A stretch of DNA of 64,000 bases. It comes from Bacteroidia bacterium. GTDB taxonomy: Bacteria; Bacteroidota; Bacteroidia; J057; JAIXKT01. Of the stretch, positions 16,115-35,200 are shown piece by piece. The notes beneath the pieces are model-generated. The model was not told the origin of the DNA and ran no database searches. It saw only the letters and a program-made list of their open reading frames with translations. The position numbers were made by a program, and so were the translations under genes. The DNA lies in contig JAIXKT010000054.1 of NCBI GenBank assembly GCA_026932145.1, forward strand, positions 62,001 to 126,000, written 5' to 3'. Numbering within the stretch: the first letter of the stretch is position 1; the number at the start of each line of letters is the position of its first letter.

Positions 16115-19100
16115 TTAATTAGCCGGTAAGCCTAAGTCTTGGCAGGTGAAAAGCACGTAATCATTGTCTAATAGAGTTCCCACAATGCTCAACATAATTT
16201 GCTTTCCATATTTATCATAAACGACTCCCCAACCTTTCCAAATTCCCAATGAGCGTACATTGCTAACAGCTTGTCCAAATCCGCCACCTTCACTTTTTAT
16301 GAACGAACATGGCTTACCAATAAGTTCCGTCTTATGAAAATTAAGTATCTCAAGCAAACTATCATTTAGAAAAGAAATTTGGTTTCGCATATTGACTTCC
16401 AATACTAAGTTTGAACGAACCATTCCGGCAAAGATTTTATCCGACTTTTCATGGGATTTTCGTAAATCATTCATAATCAGGATTAAGGAATCTATACTTC
16501 CTTTAAATGATTCTTCATTTATAGAAGCATCTTCTAAGGCTTGATTTAGTAAGTGGTTGATTTCCATTAGGTTTGTTACATCAGTCATTTGGCCAATAAA
16601 CTGAATCAATTCACTTTCTTCGTTTAGTATGGGATATATGGACACTCTTGCCCAGAAATATCCATCTACAATGGGGACTTCTAAGTCTCCTGACCATGCT
16701 TCACCAGAGTTTAATGTTGAGACTATGGCGTTAAAATCAGTTGGTTTGAATAGAGAAATAAAGGACTTTCCGATGCAATGAGAAACATCTGCGGGCAAAA
16801 TAGCGGATAGAAAAGGGGAAATATAGGTGATTTCCCCGGAAGTTGAAAAGTCAAAACGCAGTTCTCCGGGATATTGAGGAGTTGCAGGATACAAAGCATA
16901 GTTATCGGTAGTCTTTTCAGCAGAAATACTAAACTGATTTAATACCAATCCGATTTCCATAAATTTAACGATATTCCCATATTCTTGCGGGTCAGTTACG
17001 GGATACCGTAAACCATAAAAACGTTTTACTTGTCCAGTTTTATCTAATCGAACGTATTCTGTTTGGATGGTTTGGTCTAATTGCAGTGTTTCCCAAATAA
17101 AAGCTAAATTACTGATAGGAATTTCTTCAGGAAGCAATAAGTCCCAGATTGTTTTTTGGGTAAGCTCATCAAAAGAATAACCGCTTGCGGCTAAAAACGG
17201 TTGATTTGCAAAGAGGATTTTTCCATTTAGGTCATATTCTAAAATTGCAAATGAGTTTTCGAGCAATGAAATTTTTTGGTTAGCCTCTTCTGCATTTTTG
17301 GAATTGAGGGAGACCCGTAGTTTTAATTCTTCTATTTGAGCTTGATATTCTTTTTCTTCTTGTTTAACAAGGTTTAGGGCTTCTTTAATTCTTTGAGATT
17401 GAAGTTTTTGTCTGGTAATATCAAAAGAAATAACGATAAATTTAGTAATTTCGTTATCTTGATTCTTTACCGGTGTGATTGTTTGGCGTACCCAAAATTC
17501 AGTTCCGTCTTTGCTTCTATATTTAACTTCTCCCTGCCAAACTTCCCCGGAATGAATAACCTGGTTCATTTCATCATAAAATTCTGGGGGATGTTCGTTT
17601 GTTCTTAATATATCGTGTGTTTTCCCAATCAGTTCTTCTGAAGAGTAGCCCCAAATTTGGCAGGCTTCTTTATTTACATAGATAATTAATCCATCGAGAG
17701 AAAGTTCGGATACGATGGCTGCTCTGTTAATGGCTTCAATCTGTCCGGCGAGTTCTACTTGTGCTTTAAGCATCTCTTGTTGAACTTTCTCTAAATTAAC
17801 TGAATAACTTCTGAGTTTTTCTTCTTGAGATTGAGATTCTTTTAAGATTTGTTTAATCCGGATACTTTGTTGTTTTTGCCGGGTAATATCGAAAGAGACA
17901 GATATGTACTTGGTGGGCTGCTGTTTTTCGTTTAAAACCGGTGTTATGGTTAGTAGAATCCAAAATTCTACGCCTGCTTTATTTTTTCCGCATACTTCGT
18001 CTTGCCAAACAGAGCCTTGTTTGATGGTATCAAACATTTCTTGATAAAACTCTTCCGGATGGTATTCAGATTTAATGATTTGGTAATTTTTGCCGATAAG
18101 TTCTTGGCGGGAATATCCCCAAAGAGAAACGGTGGCTTCATTTACGAAGGTGATGTTTCCGTCTAAGTCCATTTCATAAACCAAGCCGGAATTATTTAAC
18201 GCGCCGATTTGGCCGGCTAATTCAATTTGGGATTTTAGTAGCTGCTGTTGTTGTTGCTGCATATAATCTGCGTTTTCACGGAGAATATCTTCCTGCATTT
18301 GAGCAACTTCAAGAGCTTCTGTGATTTGTAACTCTTGCTCTTTTTGGGCACTAATGTCAAAACTTACACTGATGTACTTAACCGGTTTCCCTTCAAAGTT
18401 TAGTACCGGCGTTATAGTTGTATTTACATAATAGAGAGAGCCATCTTTGGCCTTGTTGATGATAATATCTTTCCACACACGACCTTTGCTAATTGTTTTC
18501 CACATATCGGCGAAGAAGTCTTCTGGATGTTTGCCGGATTTTAAGATTCGGCTATTTTCACCGATTAGTTCTTCGCGTGCGTGCTGGGATACTCGGCAAA
18601 ATTCTTCATTAACCATTATGATAGTGCCTTTTAAGTCTGTTTCGGAAACTATGGCAGCGTTATTTAAGGCACCAATTTGCCCCCGAAGTTCTACTTGGGT
18701 TTTGCGCATTTCATTTTGGGTTTCCGCCATTTCTGTGGCATTTCTGCGAAGTTCGGTCTCTTGGGCGCGGGAAATCTCTAAAGCAGATTTTATTTGCTCT
18801 TCATGTAATCTTTGCTGGGTAATGTCAAATGATACGGCGATAAATTTAATCGGTCTTTGGTCGTTTCCTAAAACCGGAGCAATCGTGATATTAACCCAAA
18901 CAAAGCCTCCGTCTTTGGTTTTGTTTTTCAGCTCTCCTTTCCAAACTCTACCTTTGGTTACGGTTTGCCATAGGTCTGAAAAAATATCATCATTTTGATG
19001 TCCTGATTTTAGTATTCGGTGGTTTTGGCCAATTAATTCATCTTTAAAATATTTGTAAGTAGCTAAGAAATAGTCATTTACGAATGTTATTCTGCCGGTT

Positions 19101-21319
19101 GTATCTGTTTCGGATACGATAGCAGCTTGGTTAATTACGGTGATTTGCCCGGTAAGTTCGATTTGGGTACGCCTCATTTCTTCGGCTGACGTTTCCAATT
19201 CTTCGGCATTTTGCCTTAGCTCTTCTTCCTGAGCCATAGAAACTTCTAAGGCTTCACTTAATTTTTCTTCTTGGTTCTTTTGGGTTGTTATGTCTATCTG
19301 GACGCTGATAAACTTGGATATATTTCCTTCTATATCTAAAACCGGTGTGATACAGGCTTCTACCCAGTAATAAGTGCCGTTTTTGGTTCTGTTTTTTAAG
19401 ATACCGCGCCAGATATTTCCGGAGGATATTTTTGACCACATATCTTCATAAAATTCGGCAGACTGGTAGGTAGAGCGTAAGATACTGTGTTTACTACCAA
19501 TTAGTTCTCGGCGTGAATAGCGGGAAATCTGTATAAAACTGTCATTAACAAAGGTAATTACGCCGTTTTTATCTGTTTCGGAAACTATGGCAGCGTTGTT
19601 TAGTGCTCGGATTTGGCCGTCTAACTCTTGATGAGCCACTAATAGTTCCTGCTGTGCAACCTGCATTTTTTGGTTGCTTTCCATAATTTCAGTTTGTTTT
19701 TCTTGTAATTCGTTGCTTAGTTTTTGAGATTCCGTAAGCAGTCTAAGTGTTTTTTTGCTTGCGCGCAACATAGAAAAGGTAGCGGCAATATTTTCCGATA
19801 TTTTTTTGATAAATTCTATTTCATGTTTTTGAAAATAACTGAATGAGGCAAACTCAATAACGCCCTGAAGAACATTATTATAGTTTAATGGAGTTATTAA
19901 CAACGATTTAGGCGTAGCCTCTCCCAGTCCGGATGTCATTGTAACGTAGTCTCCGGGCACATCTGTGATATAAATAATTTCTCGCTCTGCGGCGGCTTGA
20001 CCTACAAAGCCTTCTCCGAATCTAAATGAACGGTTGGAGAGGCTTCGTTTGTTGTAGGCATAGCTTGCCACCATTTCTACAGATAGTTCTTGTGGGTTTT
20101 CGTCGTTTACGAGAAAAAAAGCACCTTGATTTGCGTCAATATATTTTGTTAAATTAGAAATTAGCCGTTCTGGCAGCACTTCTAAGCTGTCGCTCATCTG
20201 GAGCATTTCTGAGAATTTTGCGTATCCGGCGATAGCCCAATTTCTAAGCCGCTCTTCTTCCGCTACGGTCTGTAATTTATCCCGCATAGAAGTTAGGGCT
20301 ACCCCTAATTGGTCATTTACACCCAAAGGCTCAAATTCTTGTTCAAAATTACCCTCCCCAATCTCGGTAGCAAAATCTGCAACTCTACGTAAGCTAACAG
20401 TAAGGTTATTAATACTTTCTGATAAATTTCCAAATTCATCAGCGGGAATTGGAAGCTGCTTTTTATCTAAATCTCCATGCTCTAACGCATCTACCACACT
20501 GATAATTTGTGATAAAGACTTCGTGATTCGAGAAACAATATAAAAACTCAAGACTATAATTACTGCAAGGCCAAGTAAACCAATGGAAATAAAGACCATA
20601 AGAAGGTTTTTGTATTCAAGGTCATCTTTTCCGCTATGTTTTTTAGCATCTTCTATAAAATATTCGGTAAGTAGGTTCAAAGAATCATAAGATTCTTTAA
20701 TAGAGGATGTTAAATCTTTCAGTATTAATTCTAAGCTTTTGTCAAAAATACGTACTTGCTGTTGGAGTTTATATTTGTCATTACTTTCGGTATGTTTTTC
20801 TTCTAAACGATTTTTTAATGTATCAAGCCAATTTTGGGTAGATATTTGGGCACTTTTTACATTTTCCTCTACTCTAAGGGCAATATCTAACTCGGTAGAT
20901 GTGGTTAAACTGTCTTTTAATGATTTCCAGATAGAGTTTAGTTTTTCGGAATTTCGGTCTATTGCTTGGCTGGATATTTCTATGTTCTGTAATGTGGGGG
21001 AGGCTTTTATGGATTGAATTTGTAAAACGTTATCGGCTAAAAGTGCTTTGATTTGTGCAATATTGTTAGTTGGTATTAGATGCTGGGTAATGATGGTTTT
21101 TGAGTCATTGCGGAAATCACCAAGCCCTAAAAGCCCCGCAGCTATAATAGAAATTATTGAAAGACACGTAATTAAGATAAATAATATTAACCGAGTTCGG
21201 ATTGAAATTTCATTAGAATAAAACCCATTTTTCCCGGTATTCTTTGGGTTGGCAGGCGAAATCTTGGGATTTGCCTTACGGTGGGTGGTATTTTCCTTAT
21301 TATTAGTAAGCGGAGTCAT
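16115..21319 (-). CDS. Giant membrane sensor: HAMP, GAF and about eight PAS domains, no kinase
   Basis: The protein (1734 residues from ATG 21319) has a membrane helix at about 40-65, a helical extracytoplasmic sensor region, a second membrane helix at about 236-260, HAMP at about 261-350, and GAF at about 356-525 (FGEGFVGQAA). Five similar PAS+PAC+coiled-coil modules follow, starting near 570, 726, 885, 1038 and 1195, then three more divergent PAS domains near 1351, 1485 and 1636. Typical strings are AIVSETDKNGVITFVNDSF and KFISVQIDITTQK. No HisKA/HATPase N or G boxes, GGDEF, EAL or MCP signalling domain is visible. It ends directly before recN. The upstream ATG (21373) overlaps the -7 element, so 21319 is preferred. 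It may signal through a partner kinase; function unknown. Confidence 0.85.
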   Translation of the reverse strand: MTPLTNNKENTTHRKANPKISPANPKNTGKNGFYSNEISIRTRLILFILITCLSIISIIAAGLLGLGDFRNDSKTIITQHLIPTNNIAQIKALLADNVLQIQSIKASPTLQNIEISSQAIDRNSEKLNSIWKSLKDSLTTSTELDIALRVEENVKSAQISTQNWLDTLKNRLEEKHTESNDKYKLQQQVRIFDKSLELILKDLTSSIKESYDSLNLLTEYFIEDAKKHSGKDDLEYKNLLMVFISIGLLGLAVIIVLSFYIVSRITKSLSQIISVVDALEHGDLDKKQLPIPADEFGNLSESINNLTVSLRRVADFATEIGEGNFEQEFEPLGVNDQLGVALTSMRDKLQTVAEEERLRNWAIAGYAKFSEMLQMSDSLEVLPERLISNLTKYIDANQGAFFLVNDENPQELSVEMVASYAYNKRSLSNRSFRFGEGFVGQAAAEREIIYITDVPGDYVTMTSGLGEATPKSLLITPLNYNNVLQGVIEFASFSYFQKHEIEFIKKISENIAATFSMLRASKKTLRLLTESQKLSNELQEKQTEIMESNQKMQVAQQELLVAHQELDGQIRALNNAAIVSETDKNGVITFVNDSFIQISRYSRRELIGSKHSILRSTYQSAEFYEDMWSKISSGNIWRGILKNRTKNGTYYWVEACITPVLDIEGNISKFISVQIDITTQKNQEEKLSEALEVSMAQEEELRQNAEELETSAEEMRRTQIELTGQITVINQAAIVSETDTTGRITFVNDYFLATYKYFKDELIGQNHRILKSGHQNDDIFSDLWQTVTKGRVWKGELKNKTKDGGFVWVNITIAPVLGNDQRPIKFIAVSFDITQQRLHEEQIKSALEISRAQETELRRNATEMAETQNEMRKTQVELRGQIGALNNAAIVSETDLKGTIIMVNEEFCRVSQHAREELIGENSRILKSGKHPEDFFADMWKTISKGRVWKDIIINKAKDGSLYYVNTTITPVLNFEGKPVKYISVSFDISAQKEQELQITEALEVAQMQEDILRENADYMQQQQQQLLKSQIELAGQIGALNNSGLVYEMDLDGNITFVNEATVSLWGYSRQELIGKNYQIIKSEYHPEEFYQEMFDTIKQGSVWQDEVCGKNKAGVEFWILLTITPVLNEKQQPTKYISVSFDITRQKQQSIRIKQILKESQSQEEKLRSYSVNLEKVQQEMLKAQVELAGQIEAINRAAIVSELSLDGLIIYVNKEACQIWGYSSEELIGKTHDILRTNEHPPEFYDEMNQVIHSGEVWQGEVKYRSKDGTEFWVRQTITPVKNQDNEITKFIVISFDITRQKLQSQRIKEALNLVKQEEKEYQAQIEELKLRVSLNSKNAEEANQKISLLENSFAILEYDLNGKILFANQPFLAASGYSFDELTQKTIWDLLLPEEIPISNLAFIWETLQLDQTIQTEYVRLDKTGQVKRFYGLRYPVTDPQEYGNIVKFMEIGLVLNQFSISAEKTTDNYALYPATPQYPGELRFDFSTSGEITYISPFLSAILPADVSHCIGKSFISLFKPTDFNAIVSTLNSGEAWSGDLEVPIVDGYFWARVSIYPILNEESELIQFIGQMTDVTNLMEINHLLNQALEDASINEESFKGSIDSLILIMNDLRKSHEKSDKIFAGMVRSNLVLEVNMRNQISFLNDSLLEILNFHKTELIGKPCSFIKSEGGGFGQAVSNVRSLGIWKGWGVVYDKYGKQIMLSIVGTLLDNDYVLFTCQDLGLPAN

Positions 21320-21362
21320 CTTTTTAGCTAAAATAACATAAACGATGTTACTGTTTAACCTG

Positions 21363-21370
21363 CAAAAGTA
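21363..21370 (-). promoter_or_regulatory. Promoter -7 element of the multi-PAS/recN unit
   Basis: TACTTTTG on the minus strand fits TAnnTTTG and lies 43 bases before ATG 21319. It overlaps the zone right after the alternative ATG at 21373, which would then precede the transcript start. No strong -33 sequence is visible. Confidence 0.45.
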
Positions 21371-21551
21371 CAATCTCTAAACCTTAAATTCTTATCGCTG
21401 TGGATAATTTTAAAAAAAAGATAGTAAATAGGTTATAAAAATTATGTTGAAAAAAAGTAATAACTTGATTCTGTTGTTTTACGTTACGTTTTTTGTATTA
21501 ACCAAGTATTATTCAGCAGAATATTGGTGTTTTTTTACTAAATTTTCTGTA

Positions 21552-22191: not shown

Positions 22192-25100
22192 TTAATCTTC
22201 ATGCTGTAGATTAGCTTCCCATTGATGAATGATTTTTTGAACTACCGATTCCGGATTGAGCCAAAAAGATCTGGCGGAAATAAATAACAATTTCCATTTA
22301 CGGTACTGAAAAACAGCAGGTTGAAATAGTATTCTGTCGTAAGAATTTTTTCTACTAAAGAGAAAAGAGCCGTCCACCCATATCCCTAAAACATAATGAT
22401 TTGGAAATTTGGGGTGCATTAATGCTAAATCTACTTGTTGGGTTGCTACGCCAACCTGCTGTGCTACCGGAACGTTTTTTGCCAGCAAAGACTTTATTAA
22501 GAAGGTGATAATTGGGTCTATTAAATTATTCCTAATACTATGATTATCACGATTTTGAGAATAGTTTAAGGATAGACTAATTTGTTGGGCATAGCCCAAA
22601 AACTTTCCCAGTAATTGGACTCCGGGCATATTTCCGGCATAGCTTGCAAAATGACTTTCAGATAGAGAAGTTACCAAAATGAGTTTTTTTCGCGCTCTGG
22701 TAATGGCAACATTCAGCCGTTTTTCACCGCCGGCTCTACTAAGGCTTCCAAATAAAAAACGCAACTTCTTGTTTTTATCCGGTGCATATCCCGTTGAAAG
22801 TATGATTATATCCCGCTCGTCTCCCTGAACGTTTTCTATATTTTTGATAAATAATTTTTCTTCTGAAATTCCTTGGTTAAGCAGATGAAATATCCGTTCC
22901 CGCGCCACAGCATCCCCAATTTTTGTAAGATGATTCTCTAACTCATTCAGAATAAGCTCTTGCTGCATAAAATTGAACGTAATTATTCCTATTGAATCAT
23001 TAGGATACTGGGTTAAAGCTGATTGTAGCTGGTTGAGCACCTCTACGGCTTCTAACTTATTTTGTAGATTTTCCCAAGAACCTTCAATCTTAATATAGGA
23101 AATTACCGGTTCATAGGCTTTTTCCGGCTTAGCCAAGGGAATGGTTTCTAACAGACCGTCATAAAAATGCTGGTTAGAAAACATAATTAGCTCTGGAAAT
23201 AGTGAACGATAATGCCCGCGTAAAGGCACTGTTTCTAAGCTACTATGCGCAAATTGCAATAACGATTCTGATGTAATTACGTTATCATCAGTAAGTTCTG
23301 AGTCTTCATCAAAGGTTTCTATTTTGGTTTGATACAAATCATAAGGTGGTAGCTGCTGCTCGTCTCCGGCAACGAGTACCTGTTTTCCACGTAAAAATGT
23401 GGGAATAGCTCGCTCTACCAAACATTGCGAAGCTTCGTCAAATATCACTAAATCAAATAGATGCGGTTTCATCTCAAAAATGGCTGAAACCGTTTCCGGA
23501 GAAGCCAACACACAGGGAGCTAAATATTGAATTTCTGACTCCCAAAAATGCTGAAACAGCTTCCGTATCGGCCAGATTTTTGACTTCTTCGTAATTTGAT
23601 GATTTAAGTCCCTGAACGTTAGTAAGTTATTCCGCTGATTGTATTTTAGTTGAGTTAAAATTCTTTGCTTTAAATGGTGCCGAAGCAGTTCTAAGGCAAA
23701 AAAACGTAGATTATTATCTTCTTGAAAAACTTCATGGGAAAGATTTTCCCAAATAGTGGTACTGGCTTCTCGCAAAAAGGGTTTCTTAATTTCTGCATCT
23801 TGAACCCAAATAAATACTAAGGTTTGCTCTATTTGTTTCAAGTATTTTTCCGTTGGTAAGCACTCAGGGTTTTGTATAAACCACTGAATAAAAGCCTGTT
23901 CCGGTTTATTTAAACGAGCATACCAGCTATCTGCAAGTTGTAAAGTTTCGCTATGCTGCCCCAGAAATACTAACGCTTCTTTAAGTTCTGTGCTTGAATA
24001 AAGAGGTTTTTGAGAAATATTAGCTAAAAAAGGCTCTAAAAGGGACTGGATTTTTTGATTTATGTGGGATGAATCTAAGGCAGATTTTGCCTGCTTAAAT
24101 GTATTTTCCCACCAATTTGAATCCGGTTGGGCAAATAATTGGGTCTCGTGTTCCCAGCTAAGTAACCATAGCCAAAATATCTTATAGTTCTTGAAATCAG
24201 AGAGTTGTTTTTCCCAAAGATGTTTTTTAGGTATTTCAGGCCAGTCTTGAAGTAGTGGATTTCGTTTTAAAACAGCTAATTTAGGGGCACATTCTCGAAC
24301 GATAAGTGCTTCTTGCCGGAGTTCTGCTAATTGATGCTGACCCAGATTAAATCGTTGTAAAAATTGGTTTACAAAACCGGTAGAAGTATGCCAAGAGCTT
24401 TTAAGAATCTTGAATATAGAATCCTGCAGGTCATCCAAAACATCCAAGTGATTCAAAAATTCAATAATCTTAGGAACGTTTTCAAGCGGCAGTAAAACTA
24501 CTTGATTGAGTTTGTTTTGAATAGCTTCAAGGGTAGGAATATTTTCAAATGCTTGATTAACAATATCTAAATTATCAGAACGAATATAAGTTGTAAGTTT
24601 ATTGCGAAACGCAGGGTCTATAAATTCAGCGTATTTCAAAAAAGATTGTGCTTGCGTTTGGGTGAGTTTTGTTATTTCGGGGGAAATTACAGGCAAACTT
24701 TCCCGTGCGCAAGCCAAATCAACACTTTCCTGAATATTATGTGTAATATCCGTAATTAGTTGATTATGAATATTTTTTCTATTTTTCCAGAAGCTATTTT
24801 GGGTTAAAATTTCCCAAAATTCAGATAATCTACTGATTGTTTGATATACATTTTGCCATTCTGCCCAAGTACTTGTTTGTAGTGTTTTAGGTAGTGGAAT
24901 GGGGTTTTCCGGTTTTGGATGTGTGCAATATAGGTCGAACAAGCGTAAGCCGCATGGCTGAACCTTCAATAATTCTGAGTAAATATTTTCATGGAAATCA
25001 AAGCGATTTTGCTGTTTCTGGCAGCTTATCAAGAAGTTGGATTCCCAATTAACTTGTTCGAGGGTTTTTACTTCGGTTTCATATTGTCGAATTTGGGCGA

Positions 25101-26232
25101 TTTGGAAAGTCAACTGTTTATAGACGGCTGATCTATCATTTTGATAATCGTGGATACACAAAGCAAACGGTGCAATTCCGATTTCTTGTAGGCGGCGCAG
25201 CACAACGTCTAATGCAGAGCGTTTTTGGGATACTACTAATACTGTTTTCCCAAAAGCTAAAAATTCCGTTAAGGCATTGACAATCATCTGTGATTTTCCG
25301 CTTCCCGGAGGGCCGTTTACAGCAACGGATACCCCTTGCCGCAGTCTTTGCAAGACTTCTTCTTGGCTTGAATCCTGCGGTAAAATGCCCGGCCATACCG
25401 CTAATATAGGTTCTAATGATGAAGCTATGTTAGAAAAATCCGGTATTTTTCCGGCATAAGTGCTGGAAAGAGTGGTATAGTCTTGCACGATGGCGGCATC
25501 AGCCTGCGGAAAAATCCCCAAAACAACCTCAGGAATAGCCGTTAATACACCAAGAGGTAAGGTAGCAGCATATTCCTGTGTCCAATCACTAAATCGCTGT
25601 ATTTTATCTGTAAATAGCTGAGAATCAATCTTTATGGAAATATTATATTGGTTAATGATTTCATAAAGTTGTAAAATTACGGCTTGTAAATGGTCGCTTT
25701 CTGAAAAATCTATTTCCCAAAAATCATCTGGAAATAGATGCTGATTGATTTTTTCATAAGCGCGAAAAAAAATCGGGTTTAGATGAATCTCTTCTGTGTT
25801 GTTACGTTCTAAAATCCAGCGGCTTCGTGTATCCGAAGATTTGACCAAACGAGCTGGCAAAAATAATAACGGGCTGCGAACAATGGTGTTATCTAATAGT
25901 TTCCCAAAAACAAAAGGAAATCCTAATTTTAAGTCATAGGTGCCGGATTCTTCGTAAATAGTGTGTAGCGTTCGATGAATCCGGTTTAGGCGAATATCTC
26001 CGGCAATAATATCATGAAGTTGCGGATCAACTTGCTTTATAAGTACAACTGATTGGTTTTTAATTAGTTTATCAATCATTCCAAAACAAGTTTGGTTGTT
26101 TAGGAGGCTGATTGATTCTAAGTCGAAATCACGAAGTGGGGAAAGCCTAAGCAGCTTGAGTGAACGGTTTCTTTGGCTTATATCCGTTAAGCGGAGCTTT
26201 AATTGCTGAAAATAATTCTCAATAAGTTGCAC
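22192..26232 (-). CDS. DUF4011-type SF1 helicase with Vsr-like C-terminal domain (Hhe-like)
   Basis: A 1346-residue protein. The N-terminal motif LRLTDISQRNRSLKLLRLS (about 13-31) resembles DUF4011 proteins. An Upf1-like SF1 helicase follows: Walker A NGPPGSGKSQMIV (about 307-320), motif Ia VVSQKRSALDVVLRRL, motif II DEASQ (about 930) with AGDEQQLPP, motif IV area RGHYRS (about 1005), then VQGDERDIIILS and NVAITRARKK (about 1176). Residues ~1237-1340 look like the Vsr/MTES_1575 endonuclease fold (VDLALMHPKFPNHYVLGIWVDG). The acidic residue usually found after LGI is Trp here, so the nuclease may be inactive. Such helicase-Vsr proteins include the reported antiphage system Hhe. It starts 6 bases after the TPR gene stop, so the two are probably translationally coupled. 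Confidence 0.8.
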   Translation of the reverse strand: MQLIENYFQQLKLRLTDISQRNRSLKLLRLSPLRDFDLESISLLNNQTCFGMIDKLIKNQSVVLIKQVDPQLHDIIAGDIRLNRIHRTLHTIYEESGTYDLKLGFPFVFGKLLDNTIVRSPLLFLPARLVKSSDTRSRWILERNNTEEIHLNPIFFRAYEKINQHLFPDDFWEIDFSESDHLQAVILQLYEIINQYNISIKIDSQLFTDKIQRFSDWTQEYAATLPLGVLTAIPEVVLGIFPQADAAIVQDYTTLSSTYAGKIPDFSNIASSLEPILAVWPGILPQDSSQEEVLQRLRQGVSVAVNGPPGSGKSQMIVNALTEFLAFGKTVLVVSQKRSALDVVLRRLQEIGIAPFALCIHDYQNDRSAVYKQLTFQIAQIRQYETEVKTLEQVNWESNFLISCQKQQNRFDFHENIYSELLKVQPCGLRLFDLYCTHPKPENPIPLPKTLQTSTWAEWQNVYQTISRLSEFWEILTQNSFWKNRKNIHNQLITDITHNIQESVDLACARESLPVISPEITKLTQTQAQSFLKYAEFIDPAFRNKLTTYIRSDNLDIVNQAFENIPTLEAIQNKLNQVVLLPLENVPKIIEFLNHLDVLDDLQDSIFKILKSSWHTSTGFVNQFLQRFNLGQHQLAELRQEALIVRECAPKLAVLKRNPLLQDWPEIPKKHLWEKQLSDFKNYKIFWLWLLSWEHETQLFAQPDSNWWENTFKQAKSALDSSHINQKIQSLLEPFLANISQKPLYSSTELKEALVFLGQHSETLQLADSWYARLNKPEQAFIQWFIQNPECLPTEKYLKQIEQTLVFIWVQDAEIKKPFLREASTTIWENLSHEVFQEDNNLRFFALELLRHHLKQRILTQLKYNQRNNLLTFRDLNHQITKKSKIWPIRKLFQHFWESEIQYLAPCVLASPETVSAIFEMKPHLFDLVIFDEASQCLVERAIPTFLRGKQVLVAGDEQQLPPYDLYQTKIETFDEDSELTDDNVITSESLLQFAHSSLETVPLRGHYRSLFPELIMFSNQHFYDGLLETIPLAKPEKAYEPVISYIKIEGSWENLQNKLEAVEVLNQLQSALTQYPNDSIGIITFNFMQQELILNELENHLTKIGDAVARERIFHLLNQGISEEKLFIKNIENVQGDERDIIILSTGYAPDKNKKLRFLFGSLSRAGGEKRLNVAITRARKKLILVTSLSESHFASYAGNMPGVQLLGKFLGYAQQISLSLNYSQNRDNHSIRNNLIDPIITFLIKSLLAKNVPVAQQVGVATQQVDLALMHPKFPNHYVLGIWVDGSFLFSRKNSYDRILFQPAVFQYRKWKLLFISARSFWLNPESVVQKIIHQWEANLQHED

Positions 26233-26238
26233 TAATGA

Positions 26239-27993
26239 TTACAAAATACCGGTTTGAATTTTTTTATCGAGTTCGGGAGATTGTTGCCCTTTGTTTTTTG
26301 CCTCTTTCCACATATCAAGTGCTTCTTGTTTGTTTCCCAATTTATAGAGTACATCTCCCAGATGTTCTGTTACTTCACCGCTTTGGGAGGCGCGGTAGGC
26401 TTTTTCTATCCATCGGCGGGCTTCACCATATTTTTCCATCTGAAATAGAACCCAGCCATAGGTATCTTGGTAAGAGGCGTTATCCGGGCTTAGCCGAATT
26501 ACGCGCTCAATCATTTCTAAGGCTTTGGGTAAACGTTCTTTACGGACGGATAGGTAGTATGCATAGTTATTTAAAGCAAATGTATTGTCCGGGTCTAAGC
26601 GTAATATTTTCTCAAATATTTCATCTGATTTAGCATATTGCTGGGCATAGTGGTAAGTATCTCCCAAAATAGAAAGTACTTGAACCAAAAAGGCGGGGTC
26701 AGGTGAGCCGATTTTCAGCACTTTTTCTAAGGCAGCAATAGCTGGCGCATAGTTATGTAGTCTAAAATTAGCTATTCCATTGTAATACAAAAATATTTGC
26801 AGCGTGGGAAATCGCTCTAAGGCACCTTCACTATCGGTTTTTAAGGCTTCCCATTGGCTATCCTCTAAATCCTGATTGAGTAATTGCTCCCATAGATGAA
26901 CGTTAAACTCTTCTTGTTCTAAGGCTTTTCGGTAATAATATCTGGCAGAATCCGGTTGGTTGTTTAGGGCGCATAAATCTCCACGCAAGGCTAATGCATA
27001 AGGATGTGCAGCATTATCAGCAAAAATCTGAGCAGAAATCTTATCAACTTGCTCTTTTATAGATTTATCTTTCTGGTAATAAGGGAGTAAACTTCCTACA
27101 AATTCAACTTTATGCTCAACTTCTACTTGGTTGTTGGAAATGATTTTTTGGACGTAGTACTGAACTTTTGCGGTATTATCTTTTTTTTGGTAGTATTTTG
27201 TTAGTTCTAAAATAGCAAACAAGTCATTGGGTTTCATGGGTAGTAGCTGGTCTTCTAACAACTGAATAGCCTCTGATTCTTTGCCCGTTTCTTGCAAAAA
27301 TTGATAAAACATCATGTAATAACGCGCTTCATACGGAAATGTTTTTATCAATTTTTGATATTCTGCTTCGATTTTTTGTGTTTGGTTAGCGATTTGGTAA
27401 ATAGCGATACGTTGGGCAAAAAGTTCTTCAAAAAAGCCTACTTGTTTTTCAATGGCATCAAACTGGTCTAATGCTAAGTCATATTTTTCGAGACGTAGAT
27501 AAAATTCGGCTAATAGAAACCGGATGTTTAGTTGGTCGGGAAAAAGTTGAACAGACTTTTCTAATAATTTGGCACCTTCGCTGTATTTGAATAAAGCCCC
27601 GTAAATTTCTGCTGCCGTTTGGTGATACCAATATTGTTTTGGATCAAGGTCTATGGCTTTTTTGGCATAGCCTAATGCTTCCGTTAAGTTTTGCTGCTCT
27701 TGATATATTTTTGCTAAATGATAACATGAAACAGCCGATTTTGGGTTTACTTTGAGGGCTTCACGAAATAATTGGGCAGATTCGGGCAATTTTTGCTGTT
27801 GATATTTTAGAACGGCATCAAAAAAAAGAGCATTAAACTTACCGGAATTAGAAGCTGAAGATTCTTTAACTGATTGATTTGCCGATTTATTTTTGCGGCT
27901 TTTTTGGGCATAAGTAATGCACGAGATACTTATACAGCCTAATAAAATCCAGATATGTAATCGTAGCACTTGGCTTTTTGCCGAACATCCCAT
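26239..27993 (-). CDS. Exported TPR-repeat protein
   Basis: The 584-residue protein has an N-terminal signal sequence (LHIWILLGCISISCITYAQ, about residues 12-30) and then TPR repeats along most of its length. Examples are SCYHLAKIYQEQQNLTEALG near 70, ALNNYAYYLSVRKERLPKAL near 480, and TEHLGDVLYKLGNKQEALDM near 550. TPR superhelices hold protein partners; the partner is not known. It follows sbcC by 55 bases and precedes the helicase by 6. A -7-like element at 28003-28010 ends 9 bases before its ATG, suggesting a very short leader. Whether it belongs functionally with the DNA-processing neighbours is unclear, since it is predicted to be outside the cytoplasm. Confidence 0.85.
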   Translation of the reverse strand: MGCSAKSQVLRLHIWILLGCISISCITYAQKSRKNKSANQSVKESSASNSGKFNALFFDAVLKYQQQKLPESAQLFREALKVNPKSAVSCYHLAKIYQEQQNLTEALGYAKKAIDLDPKQYWYHQTAAEIYGALFKYSEGAKLLEKSVQLFPDQLNIRFLLAEFYLRLEKYDLALDQFDAIEKQVGFFEELFAQRIAIYQIANQTQKIEAEYQKLIKTFPYEARYYMMFYQFLQETGKESEAIQLLEDQLLPMKPNDLFAILELTKYYQKKDNTAKVQYYVQKIISNNQVEVEHKVEFVGSLLPYYQKDKSIKEQVDKISAQIFADNAAHPYALALRGDLCALNNQPDSARYYYRKALEQEEFNVHLWEQLLNQDLEDSQWEALKTDSEGALERFPTLQIFLYYNGIANFRLHNYAPAIAALEKVLKIGSPDPAFLVQVLSILGDTYHYAQQYAKSDEIFEKILRLDPDNTFALNNYAYYLSVRKERLPKALEMIERVIRLSPDNASYQDTYGWVLFQMEKYGEARRWIEKAYRASQSGEVTEHLGDVLYKLGNKQEALDMWKEAKNKGQQSPELDKKIQTGIL

Positions 27994-28048: not shown

Positions 28049-30925
28049 TTAATTGGTTATTTGGATTTTTGAATACCCGTTACCGCTTGGCGTAACTTCA
28101 ATATGTGTTGCAATTCGCTCTTTGAGTTCTGTCAGGTGGGAAATTACACCTATTATTTTCCCTTCACTTTGTAAATTTGACAAAGCGTTTAATGCTACAT
28201 CAAGGTAATCAGAATCTAATGTGCCAAAGCCTTCATCAATAAACAAGGTATTTATGCGCATATTTTTGCTTGCCATATTTGCCAAACCAAGTGCAAGAGA
28301 AAGCGACACTATAAATTTTTCGCCGCCGGAAAGATTCTGTGCCGTTCGTTCTTCGTTATTTTGAAATTTATCCATTACAGATAACTCAAAGGGATTGGAA
28401 GACTCGCCTATACGTTTCAGGGTATAACGGTCAGACATTTTTTGTAACTGCTTGTTTGATAGGCTGACTAAATGTTCAAAAGTTAGCGTTTGGGCAAAGT
28501 TGCGGTACTTTTTGCCGTCTCCGGAGCCGATAAGTTCATTTAGTTTTGCCCATTTGCTACAAACAGCTTGCTGCTGTTCTTGTTCTTTGCGTTTTGCTTC
28601 ATTAAACGTTACGTTTTCGGCATTAGTTTTTAGTTTTTGCTGATTAGATCCAATCTTTTGTAAAAAATCATCTGCTTTAATTCTATTTTCGTTAAACATG
28701 GTTTGGAGTTCTTCTTTTGTTTTATCAGTACTCTTTTGTGCTTGTTTTTCAGCAAGTTCTCTTTCTTTTTCAGCAATAATAGCAATGTACTTTTCAAGTT
28801 CTGTATTGGTTTCTAAGGTCTTTTTTTCGGCATTAGTTTTTGCTGATTCTAATTTGTCTATTAAATTTTTTAAGTGATTTTCTTCATCATCAACGGATTT
28901 TTCGGCAAAGATTTCTTTACGTTCTGCCGATAAACTTTGTTTATCAGTTTCGATACTTTGTTGCTCTTGTAGCTTATTATTTTGCTGTTTGGTTAATTCT
29001 TCAAATTTTGTTGATAGCGATGCTATACTTTCTTTGAGGGTATTGAAGGTTGTGTTTTTAGTTTCAATTTCTGAAATGATTGTAGGGATTTCATCATCTC
29101 TTAACTGGGCAATTTGTTTTTCAAGTTGTTCAATTTTTTCAAGTGTGTTGGCTACTTCTTTGTATTTTGCTCGTTCTTCATACCTAATCAATTCCAATTG
29201 ACTTAGATAGCTTTCGTTTTCTGTAATTTCAGGGATGATTAGCCCGATGGTTACTACTTCATTATAAGTTTGTTGCGCTGATTTTCTGTTATCGTCTAAT
29301 TTTTCATTTTCTTTAATTATTTGTAGTTGTGCGTTTTCGCAGTCTTTTTGGGCTACTGCCAATAGTTTTTCATCATTAGAAATTTGTTTTAGAAGTTGTT
29401 CATTTAATTGTTCTTGCTGTTTTAGTTCGGTTTCTTTATTTCCCAATTCAGGGATATTTTCTGTTGCAAAAGGATGCTCTGTTGAGCCGCAAAGTGGGCA
29501 TTCTTTGCCGTCTTGAAGCGTTTTTCTGTGCTCATCTAAGCTTTTAATGGTGTTCAATAAGTTAATGTTTTCTCTTAAAAGATTGAGTTCTCGTTTTTGG
29601 TTTTCGGCAGTTATTTTATGTGCTTTGATTTTTGTGAAAAGTGCTGCTATCTTGTTTGTATTTTGGGAAATAACTTGCTCATACTGAACAATTACTGCTT
29701 TATTCTGTAATGTAGCTTTAAGTGTATCAATGATGGTTTTTACGGTTCTTCCGCAGGTAACGATATTTTCTTTTTGGGTGTGTAGGTCTGTTTTTTCTTT
29801 TCCGTTCAAAAGGCTGTTAAACTCATTTTTCAGGTTTTGGAGTGTATCTTGTTTTTGCTTTAAGCTGTTTTTTTTATTTGTTATTTCTGTTTCTAATTGT
29901 TTGTGGTTTTCTATTTTTGTATTTAGTTCTGTTTCAGTGTTTTTAGATTCTTTTTTCAATTCAGAAAGGGTGTTTTCAAGAGGTTTTAGCAGTTCTTTTT
30001 TAGATAAAATTTTGGTATCCAGCTCCCTGGTTTGTTTGAACACCGGTTCTTGCAGTTTCCATTCTTCTTTTGCCGCAGTTAGTTTATCGCTTGCGTTTTT
30101 TAAAATCTCTTGTGTTGTTTTGTTTTTTTCTTCCAATTCCGGCAGTTTTTCTTTTGCTGTATAAATTTGATTTTTTAAATTGGCTAAATCAGTAAGCCAT
30201 TTTTGAGCTGTGTCAATCTGTTTTAAATTTTCATCAATTTGATTTTTTTCTATTTCAAAGCTGATGATTTCTGTATTAAGGGTTTCGGTTTCTGCTGCTG
30301 AAAGCGTTTTTATTGCTTCCAGTTCTATTGAAATCTTATCTAATTTTCCTTTTTCTGTTCTATTTCGTTCAAAAACGCTTTTTGAGATTTCTCCATAGAT
30401 TTCAGTTCCTGTTATTTGCTCTAAGAGTTCACCTTTGTCGTTTTTATCAGCTTGCAAAAAGGCTGCGAAACTGCCTTGCGCCAGCATAATTACTTTGGTA
30501 AATTGCTCAAAGGTAAGTCCCACAATTTCAACAATTTTGGTATCACAGAAACGTATTTGGTCGGCGATGATTTTATCTTCAATATCAGCTATTAGCCGGT
30601 TTACGGGTTTTAAATTTCCGTTTCTATTTACTTCTTGTTTCCATGAGGATTTCCATTTTTTGCCATTTACTTCAAAGATAATTTCTGCATAGCAATCTTT
30701 TTCGCCTTTTGTCATTACGGCGTTTTCGTTTCCGGTGATTTCTACTCTGGGTGTTTTTCCATAGAGAGCGAGCGAAATAGCATCGAGAATAGAAGTTTTA
30801 CCGGAACCTGTTTTGCCCGTAATGGCAAAAAGCCCATCGTTTGTAAAAATAGACTGGGTAAAATCAAGTTCATTTTCACCCGATAACGAATTGATATTTT
30901 TGAATTTAAGGTTTAAGATTCTCAT
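28049..30925 (-). CDS. sbcC: Exonuclease subunit SbcC (Rad50-like ATPase)
   Basis: SbcC is the SMC-like ATPase of the SbcCD nuclease, which opens hairpins and processes DNA ends. The 958-residue protein has Walker A GKTGSGKT (residues 37-44), two long coiled-coil arms, the zinc hook CPLCGSTEHPF (near 477), the ABC signature NLSGGEKFIVSLSLALGLA (near 855) and Walker B LFIDEGFGTLD (near 885). Its start overlaps the sbcD stop by 4 bases (ATGA), a coupled pair. Length is slightly under the E. coli protein (1048). Confidence 0.96.
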   Translation of the reverse strand: MRILNLKFKNINSLSGENELDFTQSIFTNDGLFAITGKTGSGKTSILDAISLALYGKTPRVEITGNENAVMTKGEKDCYAEIIFEVNGKKWKSSWKQEVNRNGNLKPVNRLIADIEDKIIADQIRFCDTKIVEIVGLTFEQFTKVIMLAQGSFAAFLQADKNDKGELLEQITGTEIYGEISKSVFERNRTEKGKLDKISIELEAIKTLSAAETETLNTEIISFEIEKNQIDENLKQIDTAQKWLTDLANLKNQIYTAKEKLPELEEKNKTTQEILKNASDKLTAAKEEWKLQEPVFKQTRELDTKILSKKELLKPLENTLSELKKESKNTETELNTKIENHKQLETEITNKKNSLKQKQDTLQNLKNEFNSLLNGKEKTDLHTQKENIVTCGRTVKTIIDTLKATLQNKAVIVQYEQVISQNTNKIAALFTKIKAHKITAENQKRELNLLRENINLLNTIKSLDEHRKTLQDGKECPLCGSTEHPFATENIPELGNKETELKQQEQLNEQLLKQISNDEKLLAVAQKDCENAQLQIIKENEKLDDNRKSAQQTYNEVVTIGLIIPEITENESYLSQLELIRYEERAKYKEVANTLEKIEQLEKQIAQLRDDEIPTIISEIETKNTTFNTLKESIASLSTKFEELTKQQNNKLQEQQSIETDKQSLSAERKEIFAEKSVDDEENHLKNLIDKLESAKTNAEKKTLETNTELEKYIAIIAEKERELAEKQAQKSTDKTKEELQTMFNENRIKADDFLQKIGSNQQKLKTNAENVTFNEAKRKEQEQQQAVCSKWAKLNELIGSGDGKKYRNFAQTLTFEHLVSLSNKQLQKMSDRYTLKRIGESSNPFELSVMDKFQNNEERTAQNLSGGEKFIVSLSLALGLANMASKNMRINTLFIDEGFGTLDSDYLDVALNALSNLQSEGKIIGVISHLTELKERIATHIEVTPSGNGYSKIQITN

Positions 30926-32133
30926 AAAAGGCTATTTTCTAAACTATCAACAATTTCTTTGTATAATTCTGTAATCTCGTTTTTTTGTTCGTTAGGAATG
31001 TTGTTTTTTTCGAGTAGTTTATCAAAAACATTGAAGGCATTGAGTTCTTCAAGTGATTCTGCGGTGTCTTCTGTTGTTAAGCCACTGCTTCGGTATTGGC
31101 GATTTTGTAGTTTTAAGATTTCGATTTTAGAATTAGCTATTTGTTCATTAGCCCAAGTAGAAAAATCAGGAAAAATTTCATCACCGTTGTAAATGACTTC
31201 AACCCAAACAGATTCATTCATTTCTTTTAGTTCTGTTAAGCGTTTTGTTAGATGATTTTTGTTTCCGGCAATAGATTCTAATTTTTGAAAAACCGGAATT
31301 TCTACTGTTTTAATGGTTCTTTCGTTCTTAAAATCAATGATATAAACACATTTTTTTTGTGTTGCTTCTCCAAAACCCATTGGGATTGGTGAGCCACAGT
31401 AGCGAATATGTTCTTTGATTTTAGATGGCAGATGATAATGCCCAAGAGCAACATAATCAAAAATGCGGGGAAAAATGTCGCTACCAATTGCTTCTATATT
31501 TCCGATGTAGGTTTCCCGAACGCCGTCATCTTCATTTCTTTTGCCCCCAAGTACTGACAAATGGCCCGTTGCAATGATTGGAACGTTTGTTCCTAATAGT
31601 TGTCGTTTATTTTCAGCAAGTTTAGCGATTGCTTCATAATGTTTTTGGATTGCTTCATTGATGCGTTTTGAGCGGTCAGCATAATTTTCTCTATCAGTAA
31701 AACGGCTAATATCTCTTTCCCGTAAAAAAGGAACCCCGCAAACAATAATTGGCTTTTTTTCTTTGTCTTTGATGATAATAATTTCATTTTCAATATTTTC
31801 GTTTGTGCAGCCAATTACGGAGATATTTAATGCTGCCAAAATATCTTTGGGTGCATTGAGAAAGCTGGGTGAGTCATGATTTCCGCCCACGACAACTATA
31901 TTTCCACAACCTGCAGTTTTTACTTTCAAGAGAAAGTCATAATACATTTTTTGGGAAGTACTGCTGGGGGACGCAGTGTCAAATACATCACCGGCAATCA
32001 ATAGTAATTCAATAGCATTTTCTTGTATCGTTATTAGCAACCATTCTAAAAAAGCGGCGTGTTCTTCTTGCCGTTCTTTTTTAGAATAAAGAGTTCTACC
32101 TAAATGCCAGTCAGAAGTATGCAGTATTTTCAT
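30922..32133 (-). CDS. sbcD: Exonuclease subunit SbcD (Mre11-like)
   Basis: The nuclease subunit of SbcCD, a Mn-dependent metallophosphoesterase. Phosphoesterase motifs in order: HTSDWHLG (residues 5-12), IAGDVFD, VGGNHDS, ATGHLSVLG and LGHYHLP. Length 403 residues is normal. It overlaps sbcC by 4 bases. It is divergent from the UvrD-like helicase/nuclease gene, with 161 bases between the start codons, so a shared control region for both end-processing enzymes is possible. No clear TAnnTTTG element was found for sbcD. Confidence 0.96.
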   Translation of the reverse strand: MKILHTSDWHLGRTLYSKKERQEEHAAFLEWLLITIQENAIELLLIAGDVFDTASPSSTSQKMYYDFLLKVKTAGCGNIVVVGGNHDSPSFLNAPKDILAALNISVIGCTNENIENEIIIIKDKEKKPIIVCGVPFLRERDISRFTDRENYADRSKRINEAIQKHYEAIAKLAENKRQLLGTNVPIIATGHLSVLGGKRNEDDGVRETYIGNIEAIGSDIFPRIFDYVALGHYHLPSKIKEHIRYCGSPIPMGFGEATQKKCVYIIDFKNERTIKTVEIPVFQKLESIAGNKNHLTKRLTELKEMNESVWVEVIYNGDEIFPDFSTWANEQIANSKIEILKLQNRQYRSSGLTTEDTAESLEELNAFNVFDKLLEKNNIPNEQKNEITELYKEIVDSLENSLL

Positions 32134-32270
32134 TGTTTTTTAAGTTTAATTGTGTTTTAGAAAGCAGAAGAGATTATCCGGAGATTTTTTGGCAAAAAAT
32201 GGTTATTCATAATCTGGATGTTTTCAAGAACGAAATTAGAGCCTTTATACTTTCTAAGCTACAAGACTTT

Positions 32271-32278
32271 TATTTTTG
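32271..32278 (+). promoter_or_regulatory. Possible -7 element of the UvrD-nuclease gene
   Basis: TATTTTTG matches TAnnTTTG and ends 16 bases before the ATG at 32295. If correct, the upstream in-frame ATG at 32133 would not be on the transcript. Confidence 0.4.
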
Positions 32279-32294
32279 TGCAATATTGGTAGCT

Positions 32295-35200
32295 ATGCAG
32301 AAACCTCGTCAAAATTCATTTAAGATACAATATCAGTCTTTAAATGCAGTGCAGCGAAGTGCTGTGGATGTATTAAATGGAACAGTAGTGGTACTTGCCG
32401 GGCCGGGAACCGGAAAAACGCAGGTGCTTTCTATGAGAATCGCTAATTTATTGCTACAACCGGATGTCTCTCCCTACAATATTTTGTGTTTGACGTATTC
32501 CAATGCCGGAACATCTGCAATGAAAAAACGACTGCTGCAATTAATTGGCCCAGAAGCATACCAAATTACAGTCAGCACATTCCACGCATTTTGCAACCAA
32601 ATTATCATTGAAAATCCAGCCATTTTTGAAAACAATAAAATCTTACGGCAGATTCAGGAACTTGACAAAATAGAAATTATGGATAATATCCTGTTTCAGT
32701 TGCCGTTAAGCCATCCATTTAAAAACAAAAGAGAGGAATATTCAAGCAATACCAGAGGGCGGTTACTCAAATTAGTTAGAATAATAGCTGAAGAAGGCCT
32801 GCAAATAGATGACTTACAACAGTGGTTTGAAAATTACCAAGAAGATATTCCCAATATAGAAAAATTTATTTACAAACGAAAGTATCGGGATAAATTACCG
32901 GGAGAAATTAACCAAGCCGGCAACAAAGAAATAGAAGATATAGAAAAATGGAAAACAGCAATCACAATCGCTAATCAATATCTGACTGCGGTACAGGAAG
33001 CCGGTTTCTATGACTATAACGATATGATTAGCCAAGTCATAAATGCCTTTCAGCAGCATGAAAATCTCTTAGCTCGCTATCAAGAGCGTTATCAATATGT
33101 ATTAGTTGATGAATATCAAGATACCAATGGCGCACAAAATAAAGTGCTGGAACTTTTAATGGGTTATTGGGAAAACCCAAATCTCTTTGTGGTGGGTGAT
33201 GACGACCAAGCCATATATCGTTTTCAGGGAGCTAATACCTACAATTTGCTCCAGATTATCGAACGTTTTCCGCCACAAGCCTTTCTTGTTTTGAACCAAA
33301 ACTACCGCAGCACCCAACCTATCTTAAATGCCGCCGCCGTAACAATCCAAAAACTGACAGAACGCTTGATAAACGTTGAAGCAATTCAGCAAAAATATCA
33401 ACTGCATAAAGACCTACAAAGTAACGTAACTCCAATATCCGATGAAAAAATTGTATGCTACAAACTTGAATCAGCAGAAATAGAGCTATTCTGGATTATC
33501 AGACTTATCCAGCAAAGATTAGAAAAAAACACAGACCCCAGTGAAATAGCGGTATTGGTACGGAAAAACAAACACGCCGAAAGAATATTTAGGCTGCTTG
33601 AAAACCAACAGATTCCAGCTTCTTTGTCCAAAACAACCAATTTATTGGAAGAAAAATTTACAGATAATATTTTATTACTCTTAGAATATTTACTCAAATC
33701 TTACCACCAAACATTTTTGCCGGGAGAAAATAACACATTGTTCTTTCAGTTATTATTGTGCCCTTGGTGGGAGTTAGATGCCTTTTCTGTTCAGCAGAGT
33801 TATACAATCTGGGAGCAAAACGAACGAAATGAAGATAAACGAAGAAAGAATTTTTATGATTTTATTCATACTTTATCGGCGGAAAAAAGCGAGGATTTTC
33901 AGATAAAGGAGCAGATAACCAAAGTAGCTCGCTCTATAGATTTTTGGGTCAAGGACTTTCAGGAATATTCTTTTGAGGAATGGCTTGAGCGTGTTTGGTA
34001 TCAGAGCGGCATTATCGCTTTTTCACTTCGTAGCCCTACGCAACTCACTTATGTAGAGCAATTAAAAACGTTTTTTACACTTTTACAAGAACTATATACT
34101 GCCGAACCCAACGCAATGTTGGTGTTGGAAAAAATCCAAAAAATGCGCCAAGAAAAAATTTCTGTACCAGTAACGACCCTCTTGGGAGGCTCACGCGGTG
34201 TCAGAATCTCTACATTACACAGTGCCAAAGGGGAAGAATATAGCCACGTGATTATGGCAAATTGCTCCGAAAAATACTGGAAACCATATACCGGAGCTGA
34301 ACCATTCCTGCCACCGGTAGATTACCTGAAAAATAACCCGACAAATAAACAAACACTGAATAACCCAAAAGCAAACCAGCAAACTAAAAATGACGAACGA
34401 AGGCTCTTTTATGTAGGAATTACCCGAGCAAAATATTCCCTTACCTTTACATACACTACTGAAAACCAAGATACTCAACTATCTTTTCTATCAGAACTAA
34501 TTGATGTTGAACAGTGTATAGAAAAATCCATAGAAACTGAAACAGTCCAAAAACTAATCCAAGAGCACCTACCGAATTATTACAACGCTCCGCTCCTAAA
34601 AAATTTTGAAACACTATCCGCTCAATACTTCGCAAAAAGAATAGAAGAATTTCAACTATCTGTAACGCACTTAAATACCTTTTTTGAATGCCCCAGAAAG
34701 TTTTATTTAGCATACATCATCAAATTACCGACTTCCTTTACGCCGGATTCTGCCTTTGGAACGGCAATTCACGAAGCATTGCGCAGCCTCATGGAAAACT
34801 ATAAAAGCCACAAACTTCTCCCCACAGAAGATGAATTTATCCAAAAATTCAAAGAAAATATCACAACCTATCGTTATCTTTTTTCTGACCCCAAGTTCAA
34901 AACCTATCAAGAGCGCGGAGAAATTATCCTCAAAAACTATTATAACCAGATGCTGCCAACTTGGCATAACCTAAAAAACTGGTGGACAGAGCAAAGTTTA
35001 AACGCAAAACTACCCATCAAGGAAAACTTTATAGAACTAAACGGAAAATTAGACTTGATATTGCAAACTATTGAAAACCAATGGATTTGTGTAGATTATA
35101 AAACCGGAAAAGCAGATAAAACTGCATTCAAAAAACGAACCCAAGAACCACAACAAGATATTGATTATCAACTTCTTTCTATCTCAGACATCGCCCAAGA

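Follow-up and report, generated by a model that had tools for sequence, protein, structure and literature searches.

We analyzed a 64,000-nt stretch of a Bacteroidia bacterium genome (contig JAIXKT010000054.1, positions 62,001 to 126,000; hereafter, the window) with respect to one open reading frame (ORF), located at 22192..26232 on the minus strand, which starts with GTG and encodes a 1346-aa DUF4011 helicase of superfamily 1 (SF1) with a predicted C-terminal Vsr-fold domain. We propose, with roughly even confidence, that this protein is a mostly inherited core SF1 helicase carrying a re-purposed and probably non-cleaving Vsr-fold module, and that genome maintenance is a likelier function than phage restriction. 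In the proposed mechanism, a chromosomal, mainly vertically inherited helicase of the Upf1/Dna2 type would use its ATP-driven motor to translocate on or unwind nucleic acid, and the Vsr-fold domain, without the canonical metal site, might act in a RecC-like manner as a non-cleaving module that binds nucleic acid or engages a duplex. The physiological role would most likely lie in maintaining the genome rather than in destroying phage DNA.

Helicase Core and Domain Organization

The four helicase motifs named in a first-pass annotation of this DNA (GPPGSGKS, DEASQ, VQGDERD, and ITRARKK) were all read in the ORF, and most of their residues occupied invariant or nearly invariant columns in an alignment of 21 sequences that included the window protein. 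Pfam matches to AAA_11, AAA_12, MTES_1575, and DUF4011 were far above chance. In particular, DUF4011 passed its gathering cut-off (26.0 bits against 22.2, E 1e-5) with a partial match to profile positions 79-152 of 158, and MTES_1575 (PF18741) passed with 45 bits against 38.2 (E 1.2e-11, residues 1246-1336). The Walker A, DEAS, QGDExD, and RLNVAITRAR sequences, together with AAA_11 and AAA_12, place the protein among the SF1 DUF4011 helicases; thus, the annotation was right to describe a DUF4011 helicase with intact motifs. A search for paralogues in the same genome returned just two weak partial matches (E 4e-4 and 8e-4).

All parts of the protein are encoded on the minus strand. The N-terminal DUF4011-containing region (aa 1-280, 25393..26232; Pfam match at aa 80-153) has a putative outer limit. 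It is followed by the first RecA part with the Walker A motif (aa ~284-372, 25117..25383, the limits being those of the tree alignment), by the second RecA part with DEASQ, AGDEQQLPP, VQGDERD, and RLNVAITRAR (aa ~872-1190, 22663..23619; motifs, Pfam, and alignment), and by the predicted Vsr/MTES_1575-like domain of the PD-(D/E)XK fold (aa ~1239-1346, 22195..22518).

Active-Site Residues

The DNA around position 22380 reads ttagggata-TGG-gtg-gac-ggc, so the LGI-W-V-D-G of the predicted protein is genuine, and the TGG codon of Trp1285 lies at 22378..22380 in the acid column of the E-x-D motif. This column was Glu in 33/33 canonical rows of a 167-row alignment; these rows were chosen for being canonical, and their Glu/Asp/Glu/Asp/His set is fixed by construction. 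In a separate 25-row canonical alignment, Glu, Gln, Asp, Glu-Cys-Asp-Gly, His, Asp, Arg, Gly-Trp, and Arg were invariant too. Trp was found in the acid column of no other row, either among 143 rows of the state table (of 149; six without the anchoring motif were left out) or among 63 aligned rows of a Cytophagales-like family (f21).

The first-pass annotation had reported Trp in place of the expected acid, which the codon and the alignment bear out; its description of one replaced acid is too narrow. Among the 12 columns fixed in the 33 canonical rows, the window protein keeps five (Gln1259, Asp1268, Asp1287, Gly1288, and Trp1313) and has lost seven: the helix Glu is replaced by Ile1242, Glu by Trp1285, His by Phe1292, Asp by Ile1301, Arg by Gln1304, Gly by Lys1312, and Arg by Phe1317. 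Asp1268 (22429..22431) belongs to the VDL sequence and occupies the column of the first catalytic Asp, and Asp1287 (22372..22374) is the second acid of E-x-D. The window protein thus fails the canonical Glu/Asp/Glu-x-Asp/His set, reading Ile1242, Asp1268, Trp1285, Asp1287, and Phe1292 at these positions. Furthermore, Tyr1298 sits at a position that is usually Lys or Arg, and Arg1300 is kept. Over the 21 sequences the Vsr-fold domain had no invariant column, and the helicase core had most of them.

Judged from the aligned residues, Trp1285 is one among several losses, and the wider change matters more than the Trp alone. In Vsr itself, FXH is reported to stand for the (D/E)XK half-motif (available part of PMC1189080); since Vsr has Phe at this place, the absence of Glu does not suffice to show that the domain is inactive, and the combined loss of residues is the stronger argument.

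Predicted Fold of the C-Terminus

Residues 1192-1346 were modelled with AlphaFold2 from an 87-row alignment (the window protein and 86/100 locus rows), with a mean predicted local distance difference test score of 85.5, a predicted TM score of 0.67, and one loop below 50. In a Foldseek search of the PDB, the top match was the catalytic domain of I-Bth0305I (E 6.2e-3, TM score 0.75 by target length); nothing fell under E 0.001 for either the window model or a canonical Bacillaceae control model. Pairwise superposition with VIA-align gave Z 11.6 against 3hrl (2.0 A over 91 residues), 11.1 against I-Bth0305I (3r3p; 2.8 A over 97), 9.4 against Vsr (1cw0; 3.8 A over 106), and 8.8 against the RAP module of FASTKD4 (9gek; 4.0 A over 108), compared with 12.3, 13.1, 11.4, and 9.6, respectively, for the canonical Bacillaceae domain. 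A profile of the canonical domain found 3hrl at E 2.7e-6 and RAP-domain proteins at 9e-5, and it reached Vsr just at E 0.4 over the C-terminal part of Vsr; the equation of Trp1285 with the Phe of Vsr therefore rests on the motif. From the model, the C-terminus very probably has the Vsr-type PD-(D/E)XK fold, as the first-pass annotation had supposed, and the objection that it might resemble no nuclease fold therefore does not apply.

Distribution and Site States among Relatives

Of at least 591 relatives, the 80 best entered the analysis. In the order of the window, the gene was found in 18/22 genomes, the window included; an incomplete genome of family f8 gave no helicase match. The first-pass annotation had suggested a check of whether Bacteroidota homologues keep Trp, and none of those examined does so. 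Among the 17 other homologues of the order (Trp in 0/17), the acid column held Glu in 12/13 rows of family f4 (11/12 aligned rows plus L035, read by eye) and Met in the remaining one, Phe and Leu in f3, and Gln and Leu in f7; 12/17 read Glu-x-Glu. The aligned f4 rows kept the first Asp (12/12), the first Glu (11/12), the second Glu (12/12), and a Lys (12/12). The window protein and the f3 and f7 homologues have lost residues retained in f4; at the site columns, f3 and f7 show free variation, and the f7 domain can barely be aligned.

In f21, 74/78 genomes matched at E 1e-50, with 77 genera sampled. Because kin of the protein are near-universal in this one Bacteroidota family and common in its own order, housekeeping is likelier than phage defense. 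C-termini were read for 72 of the 74 (63 aligned, seven by eye, plus L064 and L065; none from G192 and G215): the canonical Glu was missing in 72/72, and 71/72 carried a new [T/S/C]-Asp-Asp. The seven rows read by eye showed T-Asp-Asp and no Glu, L064 reads T-Asp-Asp, and L065 reads Leu-Asp-Asp. In the 63 aligned rows, the first Asp, the second Asp, and the Lys were each present in 63/63 and the Glu in 0/63, and a third Asp replaced the Gly in 63/63. The acid column is mainly Leu in Cytophagales. The f21 set and the named Cytophagales loci are not independent, some organisms being the same (e.g., L285 and L103 look identical). The PADLOC profile PDC-S37, at E 1e-50, matched 28/148 genomes phylum-wide, including the window and four f21 genomes; this count used another query than the counts for f21 and the order and is not strictly comparable with them.

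Two further groups of relatives had altered sites. Long DUF4011 helicases (L072, L160, L144, L153-L155, L171, L185, L135, and L165) form a separate group in which the Glu is lost in 10/10 rows (Leu, Val, Met, or Gln) and the His of the Vsr-like site is mostly lost too, often to Tyr. Short Clostridia forms (L122, L124, L125, L127, L128, L131, L132, and L136-L139) carry Ser or Pro at the first catalytic Asp in 11/11 rows and keep the helix Glu and Glu-x-Asp.

Inheritance and Selection

A quick maximum-likelihood tree of the helicase core was built from 128/149 rows, 21 short or distant rows being left out. The window protein paired with f3 (Shimodaira-Hasegawa-like approximate likelihood ratio test support 87) inside its own order (17 rows, support 90), and the order adjoined Cytophagales (38 rows, 98), among which the f21 rows nested with named members (Cyclobacteriaceae and Flammeovirgaceae). 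The joint Bacteroidota clade comprised 55 rows (support 99), and the site was non-canonical in 55/55 of them (L099 read by eye). Bacilli rows of similar length, on a neighboring branch, were canonical in 5/5 cases; the helicase tree does not order the fork among the Bacilli, Bacteroidota, and Clostridia branches. By parsimony over 125 rows, at least nine changes were required in the acid column, four in the first-Asp column, and 13 for the full set, a count that does not separate gain from loss. In an EF-G tree, for which 26/28 genomes gave a match at threshold, the order and f4 held together as in the helicase tree, the window lay near f2, f3, and f5 without a settled branching order, and the position of f7 differed from that in the helicase tree. 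As far as these sequences go, the pattern of the trees fits descent plus losses.

Selection was estimated as dN/dS by the NG86 method in 19 pairs, which were mostly saturated, and it was not measurable for the window protein itself. The C-terminal domain gave 0.12-0.20 in 4/9 degraded Bacteroidota pairs with finite dS, 0.03-0.12 in 4/6 canonical pairs, and 0.62 in the degraded long-form pair L153/L155. Relaxed selection on this domain was considered, and the mostly saturated values permit no firm claim.

Genomic Surroundings

The 64-kb window is a housekeeping stretch, in which genes for SMC/RecN-like (14376-16106), SbcC-like (28049-30925, minus strand), and SbcD-like (30922-32133, minus strand) proteins of DNA-repair type and for a UvrD helicase with a PD-(D/E)XK nuclease domain (32133-35501, plus strand), all recognized by Pfam, accompany those for GatB, EF-G, L2, and SecY. 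Directly upstream of the helicase gene, a gene for a tetratricopeptide-repeat protein (26239..27993, minus strand; Pfam) ends 6 nt before the GTG start and is possibly co-transcribed with it; its homologue was not found beside the helicase genes of relatives (51 loci).

A conserved operon partner was also sought, and no adjacent gene was common to the window and these 51 loci. Two neighbors in the window have homologues near the genes of relatives, neither of them adjacent: a cut-off DEAD-box-helicase ORF (five Cytophagales loci) and the SMC/RecN-like gene (one locus). In Cytophagales, a gene with tandem helix-hairpin-helix motifs (ComEA-like, by eye) lies directly upstream in 15/38 loci (17 counting more distant ones), and an SDR-type gene (by eye) in 11/38. 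Both upstream genes may simply reflect synteny within the family rather than a functional module. The helix-hairpin-helix gene stands 4 to 293 nt before the first Met of the helicase (e.g., L064, L087, L096, and L102).

Two other large genes of the window were also observed. A 1752-aa sensor protein (16115-21373, minus strand) has 4HB_MCP, HAMP, GAF, and up to eight PAS matches; its 16 Pfam matches (E up to 0.1) include neither a histidine kinase nor any other output domain. A 1522-aa protein (38340-42908, plus strand) carries GEVED, fn3, Ig-like, and Por_Secre_tail (type IX secretion) domains.

Alternative Explanations

Several observations weigh against a non-cleaving, mainly inherited maintenance helicase. 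Both Asp1268 and Asp1287 are still present, and Vsr is reported to be active with Phe in the column of Trp1285 (available part of PMC1189080). The Asp columns, third Asp, and Lys are fixed in f21, and Asp...Glu-x-Glu...Lys is nearly fixed in f4; from the alignments, so little variation suggests a remodelled rather than a dead site, at any rate in these two families. The dN of the C-terminal domain exceeded that of the core in 18/19 pairs, canonical pairs included. A transfer between the order and Cytophagales stays compatible with the trees, and near-universal presence is compatible with a fixed defense gene. In addition, single genomes of f2, f5, and f6 gave no helicase match, so that the gene is dispensable in the order of the window. 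The retained Asp residues, the FXH of Vsr, and the constancy in f21 and f4 favor a C-terminal domain that still cuts with a rewired site, in which Asp1268 and Asp1287 would bind metal and Trp1285 would take the place of the Phe of Vsr, beside relatives with Asp...[T/S/C]-Asp-Asp...Lys or Asp...Glu-x-Glu...Lys. However, the window protein lacks the helix Glu, His, and Lys/Arg, on which a site of the Vsr type or a rewired one would be expected to depend, and the f3 and f7 rows are free to vary there, so that we regard continued cutting as rather unlikely. Because both the Lys and a third acid are missing from it at the f21 and f4 columns, the window protein is a weak candidate for activity.

It is also conceivable that the protein is an anti-phage defense protein of the Hhe, ProA, or PDC-S37 type that became fixed in these lineages. 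The best PADLOC match was PDC-S37 (E 6.5e-144; best stretch at profile positions 291-1342 of 1550, with L073 and L071 matching nearly to the profile end), Hhe matched at E 9.9e-71, and at least 28 relatives lie on viral contigs. Helicases of Druantia I and II, moreover, are reported to have predicted inactivated Vsr domains (available part of PMC12458937). The curated cut-offs were nevertheless missed by far: NCBIfam ProA (NF058533) gave 510.2 bits against 1500 over profile positions 647-1709 of 1903, and the relatives L056 (645.0) and L066 (444.5) failed also, compared with 2189.1 for the positive control L071. Membership in Hhe (NCBIfam NF042953) was rejected at 348.7 bits against 2000, with the best stretch confined to residues 876-1339. 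DUF3320, which is present in L071, L072, and L073, had no match in the window protein at E up to 0.1. Thus, the label Hhe-like in the first-pass annotation captured the DUF4011-helicase kinship but was too close, PDC-S37 and ProA scoring better. Together with the near-universal presence in f21 and the mostly housekeeping neighbors, these failures make a fixed defense gene unlikely. By analogy, DUF4011 genes elsewhere can be core genes too and can also lie beside defense genes: in P. aeruginosa, all searched isolates are reported to carry such a gene, which forms the core right flank of a defense hotspot (available part of PMC10250203).

Simple decay of the C-terminal domain in this lineage, with the helicase alone mattering, would agree with the loss in the window, f3, and f7 of residues kept by f4 and with the barely alignable f7 domain, but we consider it very improbable: the fold is predicted with fair confidence, MTES_1575 exceeds its Pfam cut-off, the ORF is intact through the domain, and dN/dS stays under 1 in those related pairs for which dS is finite. 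Our preferred reading remains the inherited helicase with a re-purposed, probably non-cleaving module, and it is plausible, as the first-pass annotation suggested, that the protein is a derivative serving a different role. A broader idea, which we offer tentatively and consider somewhat unlikely, is that Bacteroidota possess a core helicase-nuclease listed as defense by kinship only. Its Vsr domain would have been rewired along several lines, giving Asp...[T/S/C]-Asp-Asp...Lys for Cytophagales, Asp...Glu-x-Glu...Lys for f4, and Trp-Val-Asp for the window protein; the products would be new active sites or a module that guides the substrate, and their task would be to maintain the chromosome instead of restricting phage. 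Profiles of phage-defense helicases catch the window protein and its near-universal relatives, so that a housekeeping gene may be contributing to defense counts in Bacteroidota. The intact Bacilli forms, Glu-x-Glu in f4, T-Asp-Asp in Cytophagales, and Trp-x-Asp in the window form a natural series that allows testing of how a helicase-borne nuclease domain is switched off or rewired.

Comparison with Known Systems

Judged by its sequence, the window protein follows the plan of the Hhe and ProA helicases and is not a member by the curated tests. With PDC-S37 and ProA, its best profile matches, it shares the succession of DUF4011, the SF1 helicase core, and a Vsr-like domain, and it differs in being without DUF3320, in its partial profile coverage, and in its degraded site. 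HheA is akin as a DUF4011 helicase and aligns in the second RecA part and the Vsr-fold domain, whereas the window protein falls 451 aa short of the 1797 positions of the model. The system described in the available part of PMC3710099 likewise combines an SF1 helicase with a Vsr-type restriction endonuclease domain; however, no HEPN, transglutaminase, or winged helix-turn-helix domain is among the Pfam matches of the window protein. Short canonical DUF4011 helicases of Bacilli (L089, L092, L100, L121, and L148; 1248-1282 aa) are similar in architecture but keep Glu, Asp, Glu-x-Asp, and His. Among the open-access titles listed, we found no paper on a degraded Vsr domain in DUF4011 helicases.

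The likeness to Vsr and I-Bth0305I lies in the predicted fold and, for Vsr, in an aromatic residue that comes first in the (D/E)XK half-motif (Phe in Vsr and Trp in the window), equated by motif and not by residue alignment. The differences are that Vsr has His at the last position of its FXH motif (available part of PMC1189080) and a His69-Asp51 pair (available part of PMC11879112), and that the window protein has Asp1287 and Phe1292. The nuclease-like domain of RecC and the RAP domain of FASTKD4 also have the PD-(D/E)XK fold, and both are reported to be non-catalytic and to touch nucleic acid; along with the Druantia I and II helicases, they are precedents for the proposed non-cleaving module. 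Neither is close kin of the window protein, whose helicase motifs are intact; in RecC, the helicase domains are inactive too. The Vsr-like domain of FASTKD4 is reported as non-cutting in the available part of PMC11879112, and the inactive nuclease domain of RecC is described, in that of PMC1185551, as a hoop for single-stranded DNA.

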